A DNA stretch of 47,322 nucleotides from Acidobacteriota bacterium (GTDB lineage: Bacteria; Acidobacteriota; Holophagae; Holophagales; Holophagaceae), in the NCBI GenBank assembly GCA_016195985.1, contig JACPYP010000027.1, positions 1-47,322 of the forward strand, in the 5' to 3' direction. Position numbers and translations under genes: made by a program. Below are positions 23,687 to 29,406 of this stretch, piece by piece. A model generated the notes under the pieces. The model was not told where the DNA came from. It did not search any database and worked only from the letters and a program-made list of their open reading frames with translations. Position 1 is the stretch's first letter. Every line of letters begins with the position of its first letter.

Positions 23687-25444
23687 ATGCGTGTCCTCAA
23701 TTCGTTCCTGCTGAGCCTTGTCCTGGCCGTGGCGGCTTGGGCCCAGCGGGCGGATCCCTCCTTCGATCCAGTGAAGGACGTCTCCCTGCGCTTCGAGAAG
23801 GGCTCGGTGGTGGTGGGCACACCTGCGGGCTCCCACCTGAAGGCGGCATTCATGGAGGTGGCGAAGAAGGAGGGCCCCGGCACCCTGAAGATGGGCAAGC
23901 TGCCGCCGACCACGGCCAAGGATGAAATCGGCGACGGCATCTGGCACGGCCAGGTGCGGGTGCCTGTGAGCGGCGAGGGCCTGGTGGGAACGGTCAGGCT
24001 GCAGGTGACCTACCAGCCCTGCACCGAAGGCGAAGGCGGCGTCTGCTATCCGCCGACAACCCGGACCTTGGAGGTGAAGGCCGCGGACATTCCCGGGACA
24101 AAACCTGCGGTTTTGCCGGTGGAAAAAACGGCTGAGGCGCCTAAGGCCGACACGCAGGCAGCGCCTGCACCTGCGGCCGTCAGTGCCCCGGTGGCTGTGT
24201 CTGGAACGCCCTCTTCCCCCTCTCATCCAGGCCTGATCTGGTCTCTGCTGCTGGTCTTTCTGGCGGGCATGGGCGCTTCGCTCACGCCCTGCGTCTATCC
24301 CATGATCCCCATCACCATGGCCATCGTCGGCGCCAAGGGGGGCGGCAAGGCCCGGGGCTTCGCGCTGTCCGCCGTGCTCGTGCTGGGCATGGCGGTCACC
24401 TACACCACCCTCGGCGTGCTGGCGGCCAAGAGCGGCGCGGCTTTCGGGGCCTTCGCCCAGAAACCGGCCTTCCTCATCCCCGTGTCGCTGCTCTTCGCGG
24501 CCTTCGCGCTCTCCCTCTTCGGGGCCTTTGAAATCGCGCTGCCGCCCAGCCTCGCCATGAAGCTGCAAGGGGATGGCTCCCGCAAGGGCTTCGGCGGGGC
24601 CTTCCTCATGGGTCTGGTGCTGGGTCCTCTGTCGGCGCCCTGTGTGGGGCCCGTCATCGGCGCGGTGCTGGTGGGCATCGCGCAGCAGGGCATCGTCTGG
24701 CTCGGGGGGCTTCAGCTCTTCGTGTTCGCCCTGGGCATGGGCATGCTGTTCCTGGCTGTGGGCACCTTCTCTGCAGGGCTGCCCAAGAGCGGCGAATGGC
24801 TCACCCGGTTCAAGCAGGTCATGGGTCTGGTCGTGCTCGGCTTCGCGGCGTGGAATGTCCGGCTCATCGTGCCCGCCTGGGCCAACTACGCCATGTGGAC
24901 TTTCGTGATGCTGGCCGGTGCGGCGGTCTTGGGGCTCTTCGAGGCGGCCGACGACATGGTGGGCCAGTTCCGGAAGGCCCTCGCTATCCTCATGCTGGTG
25001 ATCGGGGCCCTGCTGTCCATCCGCATGGTGGAGGGTTTCCTTTCGGTGGAGCTGCTGCCCCGCGGGGGCACTGCCGCAGCCGCCAAGGATGAGCACAGCG
25101 GCTGGATGGAACAGGATCTGGAAGGGGCCCTGGCCAAGGCCAAGGCCGGGCGCAAGGTCGTGCTGGTGGACATCTACGCGGAATGGTGCGCCCAGTGCAA
25201 GGAACTGGACGAGAAGACCTGGCCCGAGGCAGGCGTGAAGCAATGGCTGGCCCAGAATGCAGTGGCCATCCGCATCGACACCGACGCCAAACGGAAGGAT
25301 CTGGCGGCGAAGCTGCAGATCCGGAGCTACCCCACCGTCATCCTGCTGGATGGCGAGGGGAAGGAACTGGGGCGGAGCCTGGGCTTCCAGAAACCGGAAA
25401 CCATGCTGGCCTTTCTTCAAGGAAGCGCTGGAGCCGCACGATAG
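23687..25444 (+). CDS. dsbD: Thiol:disulfide interchange protein DsbD
   Basis: 585 residues with the classic three parts. Signal peptide to about Ala19 (WAQ). A periplasmic alpha domain has Cys112 and Cys120 (YQPCTEGEGGVCYPP). A membrane domain of about eight helices carries GASLTPCVYPMIPI and LSAPCVGPVIG with the pair of conserved Cys-Pro motifs. A C-terminal thioredoxin-like domain has WCAQC (Cys501/Cys504). It moves electrons from cytoplasmic thioredoxin to periplasmic proteins. A GGAGG site lies 4 bases before the ATG. The neighbouring TlpA-type thioredoxin across the convergent gap is a plausible client. Confidence 0.96.
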   Translation: MRVLNSFLLSLVLAVAAWAQRADPSFDPVKDVSLRFEKGSVVVGTPAGSHLKAAFMEVAKKEGPGTLKMGKLPPTTAKDEIGDGIWHGQVRVPVSGEGLVGTVRLQVTYQPCTEGEGGVCYPPTTRTLEVKAADIPGTKPAVLPVEKTAEAPKADTQAAPAPAAVSAPVAVSGTPSSPSHPGLIWSLLLVFLAGMGASLTPCVYPMIPITMAIVGAKGGGKARGFALSAVLVLGMAVTYTTLGVLAAKSGAAFGAFAQKPAFLIPVSLLFAAFALSLFGAFEIALPPSLAMKLQGDGSRKGFGGAFLMGLVLGPLSAPCVGPVIGAVLVGIAQQGIVWLGGLQLFVFALGMGMLFLAVGTFSAGLPKSGEWLTRFKQVMGLVVLGFAAWNVRLIVPAWANYAMWTFVMLAGAAVLGLFEAADDMVGQFRKALAILMLVIGALLSIRMVEGFLSVELLPRGGTAAAAKDEHSGWMEQDLEGALAKAKAGRKVVLVDIYAEWCAQCKELDEKTWPEAGVKQWLAQNAVAIRIDTDAKRKDLAAKLQIRSYPTVILLDGEGKELGRSLGFQKPETMLAFLQGSAGAAR

Positions 25445-25881: not shown

Positions 25882-25899
25882 ATCCGCCGGGAGATTCAG
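25878..25899. terminator. Candidate bidirectional hairpin spanning both stop codons
   Basis: CTGAATC at 25878-25884 pairs with GATTCAG at 25893-25899 around an 8-base loop. The plus-strand stop TGA (25879-25881) lies in the left arm and the minus-strand stop TGA (25896-25898) in the right arm. TTTCCC follows on the plus strand. The symmetry fits a shared terminator between convergent genes, though the stem is short. Confidence 0.45.
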
Positions 25900-26930
25900 T
25901 TTCCCAGGATTTTCGCCAGGGTCTTCTCCAGGTTGGCGCCGCGCAGCTGCGCGCCGCTGGCGACGATCTTCCCGTCGGGGCCGATGAGCAGGGCCTTGGG
26001 GATGCTCTTCACGCCGAAGGCCTCGGCCAGGGGGCTCTGGAATCCCCCATCGATGAAGGCGTGCTTCCAGGGCATGGGCGTGGCGGCCTGCTGGCGGAAG
26101 GGCGCGATGTGCTCGATCCGGCGGTCGAAGGACAGTGAAAGGAAGTCGAGCCGGGCCGACTGGTGCTTGGCCCAGGCGGCGTGCAGGGCGGGCAGTTCAG
26201 CGCGGCAGTCGGGGCACCAGGTGGCCCAGAAATCGATGAAGAGGTAGCGGCCCTTGAAACTGTCGAGGGTGTACGTGACGTTGGCCTCACCCAGCGCCTT
26301 CACGGTGAAAGCGGGGGCAGGCTTGCCCGGCGCCGTCTTGGCTTCGGCATCCAGGAAGGCCTGGGCGCGCTCGGCCAGGGGAGGGAACTGCGCCTTGATG
26401 TCGGCCATGGCCGCCTGCCAGCCCGCTTCGTCGCCGGCATCCAGGCGGCCCAGGAACTGCTCGAAGAGCAGGGTGCGGCGCAGCCCCGCGTCCGGGTGCT
26501 TGGCCCGGGCTTCCGCGACGTAGGGACCCCAGGTTTGAGGGTCCTTCTCGGCACGCGCGGTCAGCAGCCCCGCGTCGAGGGTCCAGAAGGCAGAGGTGGG
26601 CGGAACCTCGCGAAGGGTCTGCTCCAGTTGTGCGGCGGTCGGGGCGCCCTTGGCGAGCTGAAGGTGGAAGAGGCGGCTCACCAGCAGGGCCTGCCGAACC
26701 TCGGGCCGCTTCTCGGCGGCCAGGCGCGCCTCCAGAGCCGCCAGCTCCTTGACGCAATCGCCCTTGAAGTCCTTCGTGTTGCCTCCGGACTTGACGAAGG
26801 CTGCCCGGGCTTCGGCCACGGACTTGGCCTTGGCGCGGGCGGCATCCACCACGGCCTGGGATGGGGAGACGGGCGCGGGGGCCTGGAATGCGGGGAGGCA
26901 GAGCAGGAGGGTGGGCAGGGCGAGGGGCAT
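25896..26930 (-). CDS. TlpA-type thioredoxin-fold periplasmic protein
   Basis: 344 residues from ATG 26930 (GGAG upstream). Signal peptide (LALPTLLLCLPAFQAP). Residues ~25-200 are an alpha-helical extension without a recognised domain. The C-terminal redoxin domain starts at about 205 (GKPAPAFTV) with WATWCPDC (Cys239/Cys242) and the cis-proline neighbourhood FGVKSIPKALLIGPDG. TlpA/ResA-type proteins reduce disulfides in periplasmic proteins such as apocytochrome c. Encoded on the opposite strand from dsbD, separated by the small NTF2-like gene. The helical N-terminal extension is unusual in length for TlpA. Confidence 0.88.
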   Translation of the reverse strand: MPLALPTLLLCLPAFQAPAPVSPSQAVVDAARAKAKSVAEARAAFVKSGGNTKDFKGDCVKELAALEARLAAEKRPEVRQALLVSRLFHLQLAKGAPTAAQLEQTLREVPPTSAFWTLDAGLLTARAEKDPQTWGPYVAEARAKHPDAGLRRTLLFEQFLGRLDAGDEAGWQAAMADIKAQFPPLAERAQAFLDAEAKTAPGKPAPAFTVKALGEANVTYTLDSFKGRYLFIDFWATWCPDCRAELPALHAAWAKHQSARLDFLSLSFDRRIEHIAPFRQQAATPMPWKHAFIDGGFQSPLAEAFGVKSIPKALLIGPDGKIVASGAQLRGANLEKTLAKILGN

Positions 26931-27006
26931 CGGAGCTCCGAAGGCGGTTCCGCCAAGGCTTGAGGATACCTCAAAAGCCGATGTCAAAATCGCTTTCCTG
27001 GCACCC

Positions 27007-28473
27007 CTAAGCGCGGAGGTCCTGCACCAGGTCCAACCCCGCTTCAGTGCGGCTCAGATACCAGGTCAGGGCCTGGCCATCCACCAGGTGGATGAGGGCC
27101 CGGGGGAAGCGTTTCTGCAGTTCAGCTTGGTGGCGGCGGTTGAAGCGGTAGGGTTCCGTGGGCAGGAGGATCACCTGCGGCGCCAGGCCCTCCAGATCTT
27201 CTTCCGACAGCACGGGATAGCGGTCCGGGCCGATGGGCGTGAGACCGCCCTGGCGCAGCAGGTCGCCCACGTAGGTGTCGGGGCCCGAGCTCATCCAGGG
27301 ATCCTTCCAGATCATGGCGAGGGCCCGGGGGCCCTTGCGGCGGCGCCCCTGGAGGCGGTCTTCCAGCTGGGCGGCGCGGGCTTCGGCCAGCTCCGGCACG
27401 CCCAGGCGTCCGCCGAGCTGGCGCAGGCCCGCGATGCAGTCTTTCACGGTGCGGATCTCCAGGGCCATCCAGGGCAGGCCCAGGGTCGTCAGGGCCTCGG
27501 CCACGGCCTTGGGATTCTCGTCCCTTTCGAGGATCACCAAATCCGGCGCCAGATCGCGGATGCGGTCCAGGTCGGGATCCTTGGTGCCGCCCACCATGGG
27601 CACGCTGTTGCGGATCCAGCGCGGTTCGATGCAGTAGCGGGTGCGGCCCACCAGCCGGGCGCCGAGGCCCCACTGCACCAGCAGCTCCGTCACTGAGGGC
27701 ACCAGGCTGACGATGCGCAGGGGGCCTGCTTCAGGCGGAGCCTGCGTGCTGAAGACCTTGGCGGGAAGCTGCGGGACGGCTGCCGCCCGTTTCACGCCGA
27801 GATGGGGATCCTTCGCCTCTCCCAGCCCCGTGGGGCAAAGATCGAGCAGGGGACACACCGCGCAGTCGGGGCGTCGGGCATCGCACACGCGGCGGCCGTG
27901 GTGGATCAGCTGGTGGTGCAGGTCGATCCAGGATTCCCGCGGGAAGAGGCGGCACAGATCCGCTTCCACCTTCTCGGGAGTGGAGGCCTTGGAGAGGCCC
28001 AGGCGCCGCGCCACGCGGAAGATGTGGGTGTCCACGGGAAGGGCAGGCACGCCGAAGGCGTTGGAGAGCACCACGTTCGCCGTCTTCTGGCCCACGCCCG
28101 GCAAAGCCGTGAGGGCGGCGAGCTCCGAGGGCACCACGCCGCCGTGCCGCGCCATCAGGGCCTGCCCCAGGCCGATGAGGTTTCGGGCCTTGTTGCGGAA
28201 GAAGCCCGTGGACTTGATGAGCCCCTCCAGCTCGGCCAGCGGCGCCTGCGCCAGGCTGGCCGCATCAGGAAAGCGGGCGAACAGGGCCGGCGTCGTGAGG
28301 TTCACCCGCGCATCCGTGCACTGGGCGCTGAGAATGGTGGCCACCACCAGCTGGAAGGGATCCTGGTGGTCCAGGGCGCAGCGGGCGTCGGGATAGGCGG
28401 CGCGCAGCCGAAGCTGGAGGTCGCCCACCTTGGGGCCAGGCTTGGGTCCGGACTTGGGCTTGGCTGGGCTCAT
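27007..28473 (-). CDS. nth: Endonuclease III fused to a BtuF-like metal-receptor domain
   Basis: 488 residues in one open frame from ATG 28473. Residues ~20-215 are a complete endonuclease III: helix-hairpin-helix LPGVGQKTANVVL with catalytic Lys130, VDTHIFRV with Asp148, and the 4Fe-4S ligands Cys197-x6-Cys204-x2-Cys207-x5-Cys213. It excises oxidised pyrimidines from DNA and nicks abasic sites. After a ~35-residue linker, residues ~252-488 form a BtuF-like periplasmic-binding fold without a signal peptide: LRIVSLVPSVTELL, D..RI..L.PDLVILERDENP and SSGPDTYVGDLLRQGG. No stop separates the parts. Only a GTG at Val227 could restart translation, without a visible ribosome site. Whether one or two products form needs protein data. 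Confidence 0.88.
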   Translation of the reverse strand: MSPAKPKSGPKPGPKVGDLQLRLRAAYPDARCALDHQDPFQLVVATILSAQCTDARVNLTTPALFARFPDAASLAQAPLAELEGLIKSTGFFRNKARNLIGLGQALMARHGGVVPSELAALTALPGVGQKTANVVLSNAFGVPALPVDTHIFRVARRLGLSKASTPEKVEADLCRLFPRESWIDLHHQLIHHGRRVCDARRPDCAVCPLLDLCPTGLGEAKDPHLGVKRAAAVPQLPAKVFSTQAPPEAGPLRIVSLVPSVTELLVQWGLGARLVGRTRYCIEPRWIRNSVPMVGGTKDPDLDRIRDLAPDLVILERDENPKAVAEALTTLGLPWMALEIRTVKDCIAGLRQLGGRLGVPELAEARAAQLEDRLQGRRRKGPRALAMIWKDPWMSSGPDTYVGDLLRQGGLTPIGPDRYPVLSEEDLEGLAPQVILLPTEPYRFNRRHQAELQKRFPRALIHLVDGQALTWYLSRTEAGLDLVQDLRA

Positions 28474-28521
28474 GGAATCAGCATAAGAGCGCGGCCCGCC
28501 GATGAGGGGGCCAGGATTCGA

Positions 28522-28545: not shown

Positions 28546-29406
28546 ATGCTCACGACGCTGTCCGGGAAGCTCGACTGCCAGGAAACCGCCCGCCACTACC
28601 TGGATCTGGTGCGCACCAACATCAAGAAACTGGGTTTCGCGCCGGGCCTGGGCGTCATCCTCGGCAGCGAAGATGCAGGCAGCGTCACCTACCAGCGCTG
28701 GCTCATGAAGGATTGCGAGGATGTCGGCATCAACGCGGCGGATCTCCGCGTGGAAAACGGCATGCAGATGGTGAAGCTGGTGGCGCGGCTCAACCAGGAT
28801 GAGAAGACCCACGGCGTGTTCATCTTCTATCCCCTGCGCTACGCCGAGATCAAGGATGACGAGGTCATGGACCTGGTGGATCCGGGCAAGGACATCGAAG
28901 GTCTCCACGCCATCAACATCGGCTTCTTGAACAAGTACCGGAAGCGCATGGATGACGGCACCCAGCACCGCTGCATGACGCCGTGCACGGCGCGGGCCAT
29001 CGTGAAGACGCTGAAACGGGGCTTCGGCGAGGCCTGGCTGGCGGGCAAGACCGTGCTGGTGATCAACGACAGCCTGCGCATCGGCCGCCCTCTCACGGCC
29101 ATGGTGGCCAACCTCAAGGCCACGCCCATCCTCTGCCACGCCGCCACCAACAAGGAACACCTGGAGGGCTTCATCCGCATGGCCGACGTCATCGTCAGCG
29201 CCGTGCCTGCGCCGGGTTACCAGATCAACACGGGCTGGATCAAGAGCGGCGCCCTCTGCTTCGATCTCAGCGGCGACGGCAACTTCGACTACGAAGCGCT
29301 CGACGCCCGCGGCATCCCCTACACCGACACCACCAAGAACAGCGTGGGCAAGGTCACCCGGGCCATGGCCCTGCTGAACCTCACCTATGCGGCGGGGCTG
29401 GGCTGA
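28546..29406 (+). CDS. folD: Divergent FolD-like methylene-THF dehydrogenase/cyclohydrolase
   Basis: 286 residues, the usual FolD length. FolD interconverts 5,10-methylene-, methenyl- and 10-formyl-tetrahydrofolate. The fold is recognisable: PGLGVILGSEDAGSVTY, MTPCTARAIV, the NADP loop NDSLRIGRP (family GRS..VGRP) and VGKVTRAMALLN. But the conserved Tyr-x3-Lys reads Tyr49-QRW-Leu53, so the cyclohydrolase Lys is missing, and the QLPLP motif is FYPLR. In studied FolD enzymes that Lys is needed for cyclohydrolase activity while dehydrogenase activity tolerates its change. It may therefore be a dehydrogenase-only enzyme. GAGGTGA ribosome site. Confidence 0.82.
   Translation: MLTTLSGKLDCQETARHYLDLVRTNIKKLGFAPGLGVILGSEDAGSVTYQRWLMKDCEDVGINAADLRVENGMQMVKLVARLNQDEKTHGVFIFYPLRYAEIKDDEVMDLVDPGKDIEGLHAINIGFLNKYRKRMDDGTQHRCMTPCTARAIVKTLKRGFGEAWLAGKTVLVINDSLRIGRPLTAMVANLKATPILCHAATNKEHLEGFIRMADVIVSAVPAPGYQINTGWIKSGALCFDLSGDGNFDYEALDARGIPYTDTTKNSVGKVTRAMALLNLTYAAGLG

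Follow-up and report, generated by a model that had tools for sequence, protein, structure and literature searches.

The window analyzed here comprises 47,322 nucleotides of contig JACPYP010000027.1 from an Acidobacteriota bacterium of the family Holophagaceae (GenBank assembly GCA_016195985.1). At the locus of interest, an endonuclease III (Nth) is joined in frame to a domain with the TroA/BtuF fold. The gene, its parts, and its two immediate neighbors are listed below (residue numbers are those of the fusion protein).

27007–28473, minus strand: nth-troA fusion gene, 488 amino acids, with its ATG at 28473 and its stop codon at 27007–27009
27835–28416, minus strand: endonuclease III domain (HhH-GPD core plus iron-sulfur loop), residues 20–213, TIGR01083
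28084–28086, minus strand: K130, the predicted catalytic lysine, in the HhH; 100% conserved in 52 fused and 11 unfused Nth rows
28030–28032, minus strand: D148, the predicted catalytic aspartate, in the VDTH motif; 100% conserved in the same 52 fused and 11 unfused rows
27835–27885, minus strand: iron-sulfur loop with Cys 197/204/207/213 (C-X6-C-X2-C-X5-C); 100% conserved in 63 rows
27796–27810, minus strand: DPHLG motif of the Nth C-terminal tail, residues 222–226; DPH is also present in eight unfused loci of the family
27724–27795, minus strand: linker, residues 227–250, with a GTG at 27793–27795; pLDDT 60–68 for residues 231–250
27010–27723, minus strand: TroA/BtuF-fold domain, residues 251–488, with C281, K298, E319, N320, W389, E440, F444, and W471 conserved
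28546–29406, plus strand: folD (methylenetetrahydrofolate dehydrogenase/cyclohydrolase), the divergent neighbor; its family recurs in 23 clustered loci
25896–26987, minus strand: TlpA-like thioredoxin-fold protein, next downstream; its family recurs in 16 clustered loci

An earlier note on this DNA placed a single frame of 488 residues at 27007–28473. Both the coordinates and the frame are correct, and the frame is on the minus strand, which that note left unstated (the plus-strand reading of the same interval is interrupted by a stop). Just upstream, at 28470–28484 on the minus strand, a four-codon frame (ATG CTG ATT CCA TGA) terminates within the ATGA at which the fusion gene begins, possibly a case of translational coupling and possibly chance. 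On the other side, the listed frame of the TlpA-like gene begins 19 bp past the fusion, and its true start may lie further on. Thiol-redox proteins thus adjoin the fusion, the second being DsbD-like (23687–25441). No Rfam family reached the gathering threshold in the window, so no cobalamin riboswitch was seen.

The first half of the protein is a complete Nth, as had been proposed. It scores 252.1 bits against the curated equivalog TIGR01083 (cut-off 211.7; residues 20–204), and K130, D148, and the four cluster cysteines are all present; the catalytic roles predicted for K130 and D148 are those of the Nth family. The Pfam model EndIII_4Fe-2S falls just below its threshold (19.8 versus 20.5). 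In an AlphaFold2 model of the 488-residue protein (pLDDT 94.6), residues 12–232 match 1orn/1p59 with Z 28.9 in a fold search, and the likeness to endonuclease III structures (1orn, 1p59, 2abk) extends to the whole domain, the Lys/Asp pair, the four Cys, and the fold (Z 25.9–29, 40%–44% identity). Compared with known Nth, the fusion adds the DPHxG tail and the second domain, and no structure matching both domains was found among the matches listed by the fold search. Nth is a very widespread housekeeping repair enzyme. Also among the matches listed for the same genome are a 368-residue HhH-GPD frame, which looks like MutY, and a TroA-type gene.

The second half is complete as well. NF038402 (“helical backbone metal receptor,” TroA_like) matches residues 253–472 at 147.3 bits (versus 30), spanning model positions 1–217 of 219, and Peripla_BP_2 matches at 52.8 (cut-off 27.5). 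From residue 251 onward, ten-residue blocks of the AlphaFold2 model have pLDDT values of 90–98, and this half resembles BtuF and heme receptors with Z 21–24 (23.9 to BtuF 1n2z, 24.1 to 2r7a); these pLDDT values and fold matches identify the predicted structure as a class III binding-protein fold with a helical backbone. The domain begins at residue 251, after Nth and in the same frame, and because it is internal to that frame it has no signal peptide, in agreement with the earlier description. BtuF shares the fold (23% identity to 1n2z) and an equivalent of its Tyr50, but the window domain is internal, lacks a signal peptide, and scores 41.8 against the BtuF equivalog NF002894, for which the cut-off is 234. 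ShuT, HmuT, and RhuT likewise share the fold, at about 20%–25% identity, and are described as periplasmic, unlike the window domain.

Standalone relatives that match NF038402 have the motifs YCxxP, GGTK, ExEN, IWKxPWM, and EPYxF in common with the window domain, which differs from them in being joined to Nth, in belonging to its own clade, and in being altered at six positions. Across 52 fused and 52 standalone rows, C281, K298, E319, N320, W389, F444, and W471 are 100% conserved, and E440 is conserved in 96% of the fused rows. The six fused-only changes are 268 W, 316 E, 338 L, 415 G, 470 T, and 473 L, several of which adjoin conserved motifs in sequence. From this placement we infer that the six positions belong to the cleft region, and changes of this kind make a modified ligand or mode of binding possible, which the fused branch may indeed have. 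Another reading is that the TroA half has lost ligand binding and now serves as a protein- or DNA-contact domain for Nth. The changes do fall at otherwise conserved sites (e.g., N to E at 316 and G to L at 473), but the TroA residues conserved family-wide are still 96%–100% conserved in fused copies, and we consider this reading highly improbable.

That the gene is a true in-frame fusion, as the earlier note held, is borne out by a search of relatives: Nth and TroA occur in one uninterrupted frame in 60 of 77 genomes of the window's family, four of them (G010, G021, G034, and G067) with one domain incomplete. Nth occurs alone in eight genomes (G073, G074, G075, G086, G094, G095, G096, and G099), pieces cut by contigs are all that is present in three (G012, G017, and G029), and six have no match at E 1e-25. 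Four of these six give weaker matches, mostly of MutY-like length, and the other two, G097 and G098, have no Nth- or MutY-like match at E 1e-4. Both belong to genus g25 (G098 is reported as 92% complete), and they may have lost both glycosylases, or the contigs may be missing. The fusion is retained in g16, a genus with genomes of 0.9–1.2 Mb. Acidiparvus (UBA12189) is described as the sole streamlined genus of Holophagaceae and as auxotrophic for B12, with btuB present in every genome (PMC11561045).

A chance open frame is excluded by the conservation of the joined frame (about 45%–84% identity) and by dN/dS. For close pairs (Nei-Gojobori), the medians are 0.17 for Nth and 0.27 for TroA (875 pairs each) and 0.93 for the linker (683 pairs), the last being a rough value owing to alignment and saturation. 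Both halves are under purifying selection and the linker is nearly unconstrained. The main alignment (A3) draws on 52 of the 60 genomes with the fusion and omits near-copies and cut rows; an alignment of 18 TroA domains was too diverse for scanning. Measured from the last cluster Cys to TroA, the linker ranges from 21 to 74 residues, and the frame runs through it uninterrupted in every one of the 62 fused rows (from 60 genomes, two of them represented twice). Long linkers share recurring stretches such as RPSGVRKSDTPG...LGGRPRPPSP (L022, L024, L026, L029, L030, L114, L118, L119, and L124), and a stretch ASEASRRSPR recurs in the linkers of L016, L025, L027, L112, and L113; to judge from their sequences, it is as if a small repeat had been inserted in frame.

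The linker is also where a second protein could begin. It had been described as free of ATG and TTG and as holding one GTG, and this is so, GTG227 being its sole start codon. The accompanying argument, that this GTG lacks a ribosome site, is a weak one because the main start has none either: Shine-Dalgarno pairing is absent at the main ATG (+0.6 kcal/mol), weak and distant at GTG227 (−4.8), and also weak at a GTG at residue 266, within the TroA domain (−5.8). These values could favor two products, made by internal initiation at a linker or TroA start or by cleavage, with the common frame incidental, and 57 of the 62 fused rows do have some linker start codon. However, the remaining five have no ATG, GTG, or TTG anywhere in the linker, linker length differences preserve the frame in every case among the 62 rows, and GTG227 encodes the valine in a recurrent DPHxGV stretch. 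It is the linker open throughout the 62 rows, together with the five rows that lack any start codon in it, that provides the stronger evidence for a single product, and we think two products quite unlikely.

Beyond the family, TroA matches were found in 52 other genomes among 297 sampled from the window's phylum, where ordinary receptors may account for many of the weaker matches. The phylum of G357 has matches in 63 of its 324 sampled genomes, and Bacteroidota (the phylum of G362, that of Niabella) in 140 of 395. In 13 named genomes there was no Nth-type match beside TroA (for G360, the identity of the Nth is itself doubtful), and among 121 standalone TroA loci with flanks, some of which are copies of one genome, tblastn found TroA in 121 and Nth in none. 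Therefore, Nth and TroA are not general partners, and their link is special to the window's family. The earlier note had named separate genes in relatives as evidence against the fusion; such genes are the arrangement outside the family and not within it. Fusions elsewhere were considered on the basis of long frames (at least 440 residues) around TroA, seven of the 63 in the phylum of G357 and two outside the family in the window's phylum, and rejected: none contains Nth, and in all nine the TroA part and the stretch preceding it differ in codon-position GC. Among Bacteroidota, no TroA frame exceeds 342 residues. The fusion search covered samples of these three phyla, and the scan of named genomes covered the best 80 of 570 relatives.

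The standalone copies form a group for which no described role was found in an open-access literature search, among the matches listed. Of 103 distinct copies, 49 have no start codon farther than 15 residues upstream of the SLxPS motif, so a signal peptide would not fit; the other 54 may have the space, since possible starts occur at greater distances. Among the 95 standalone loci in which a TroA gene was called, 12 have methylmalonyl-CoA mutase genes nearby (L157, L160, L162, L166, L193, L195, L200, L205, L211, L239, L243, and L251). These 12 come from records of Planctomycetota, Binatia, and Desulfurellaceae and from genomes of the phylum of G357, and the independent cases are fewer, several of the loci being near-copies (L193 and L205 share a contig). 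The TroA-like gene at these loci is a candidate cytosolic cobalamin-related protein. Many of the mutase loci also have a small HTH protein, an acyl-CoA dehydrogenase, and a gene of the metallo-beta-lactamase fold. Near the 95 standalone genes overall, we counted acyl-CoA dehydrogenase nine times, metallo-beta-lactamase-fold genes 10 times, fructosamine kinase nine times, and GTP cyclohydrolase I three times. In Balneolaceae-type genomes, the TroA-like gene sits by the fructosamine kinase gene, mostly along with a low-molecular-weight phosphatase (the fructosamine kinase loci are L145, L148, L158, L159, L161, L170, L188, L189, and L206). A tie between TroA and folate genes was considered and set aside, in that folD adjoins the fusion but folE is near just three of the 95 standalone copies (seven loci in a looser cluster).

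The history of the fusion can be approached from two trees. When 21 fused TroA domains are placed in a tree with 52 standalone ones, they group as one clade (100/98), in which g16 is sister to the rest. As the Nth tree is too poorly resolved to tell loss from gain, RpoB was used for the genera (G086 and G094 had no usable RpoB, and that of G095 is partial). The Nth-only genera g17, g24, and g25 lie within a clade (97/99) with the fused g21, g22, and g23; g18 is just outside that clade (90/89), and the fused g1, g16, g19, and g20 are further out, mutually unresolved. On this tree the Nth-only label needs three changes, two of them forced by starred branches. Genus g21 is mixed, with G086 Nth-only and G083 and G084 fused. 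The single origin of the fused TroA domains and the nested position of the Nth-only genera favor an ancestral fusion from which the TroA half probably disappeared on more than one occasion, with Nth kept, although regain by transfer is possible. All eight unfused loci end within about 30 residues past the DPH motif, and five keep a downstream neighbor known from fused loci (the tlpA-like gene, directly following nth, in L092, L093, and L095, and cluster c3 in L096 and L098), as expected of deletion in place. Nth-only genomes have no close TroA elsewhere in the genome, and every uncut close TroA copy found in the family is fused.

Taken together, we favor, with some confidence, a protein whose two modules, an ordinary Nth and a cytosolic small-molecule binder, are joined by a flexible tether and work largely independently. 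An nth gene would have been joined once to a TroA-like gene in the ancestor of the Holophagae family, giving a bifunctional tandem protein. Its Nth half would carry out ordinary base-excision repair as a glycosylase/AP lyase on oxidized pyrimidines, and its TroA half would act largely on its own as a cytosolic binder, with a small molecule bound in the cleft of the fold. The tether would mainly provide co-expression and a fixed 1:1 amount, and the cleft region would have been altered on the fused branch, at the six fused-specific positions. Independence is argued for by the loss of TroA in several lineages and by how little Nth changes with it: at positions at least 95% conserved in fused copies, only two of 94 shift in the seven Nth-only rows of the family. 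Some observations pull the other way, in that the AlphaFold2 model of the window protein has a global pTM of 0.86, which may reflect a defined interface between the domains (a short-linker homolog gives 0.72), and the tether could matter, given that the fusion is kept in a streamlined genome and all close copies are fused.

The earlier note had suggested ligand-controlled repair; in such a scheme, a metabolite on the TroA half would switch or target the glycosylase. The two-of-94 result and the probable repeated loss of TroA speak against this, as do the nearly free length and sequence of the linker, the absence of Nth near TroA at the 121 loci outside the family, and the lower pTM of the homolog. 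Retention of the tether in most family genomes is in its favor; otherwise, the only possible hints of such control are the confident arrangement in one of the two models and the altered residues of the cleft region, several beside conserved motifs. We judge it unlikely. The same note also raised the possibility of a chaperone for the iron-sulfur or metal state; the TroA half would then be a chaperone or delivery domain for the cluster or metal state of Nth. Transport relatives of the fold bind heme, corrinoids, and iron chelates (according to structure titles), and Cys281 is invariant. Against this, unfused Nth has the same four Cys without TroA, standalone TroA genes are not near Nth, and the 25 commonest neighbor families include none for iron-sulfur assembly, so that a chaperone role appears very unlikely.

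For the TroA half of our two-module protein, the choice of ligand is a separate question. Five BtuF residues (Y50, W66, F162, F168, and W196) are named as involved in cobalamin binding (PMC5662663). Their window equivalents are Y280, T297, I388, M394, and Y419, of which only that of Y50 is identical; the alignment used the BtuF W66L chain, and position 66 is equated by place. With four of these five contacts different, cobalamin itself is not supported as the ligand, and the label BtuF, judged at the level of residues, overstates what can be said of it. Our leading guess is nevertheless a corrinoid or other B12-linked compound. The mutase genes near standalone TroA hint at a cobalamin link. 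The idea that TroA presence tracks B12 enzymes, in contrast, fared poorly. B12-binding domains occur in all 77 family genomes. By frame length alone, a mutase of about 558 residues is present in six of the seven fused genera (not g22), and, of the Nth-only genomes, no mutase was found in g17, g24 and g25 have a longer MutA/MutB-like pair, and G086 and G075 seemingly have the 558-residue type. TroA loss thus matches mutase type badly, and the comparison is confounded by ancestry; this mismatch and the changed BtuF contacts weaken the corrinoid guess. Each of 13 genomes with the fusion that were examined has another Peripla_BP_2 gene, and therefore uptake need not rely on the fused copy.

The earlier note knew of no described system of this type, and an open-access literature search (titles and abstract openings) likewise found no description of the Nth-TroA combination among the matches listed. 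Both halves are already known; it is the domain architecture that is new. A fusion that is family-wide and under selection and that pairs Nth with a small-molecule receptor domain is architecturally unusual, and the analysis also brings to attention a relative of periplasmic receptors that is common and, at least in part, intracellular. The fusion is a ready test case for a possible link between base-excision repair and a metabolite. A metabolite-sensing glycosylase, in which the remodeled TroA half would sense a cofactor-type compound and tune the activity or location of endonuclease III, is in our estimation unlikely; if true, it would mean that cofactor or redox status is coupled to base-excision repair across a bacterial family.
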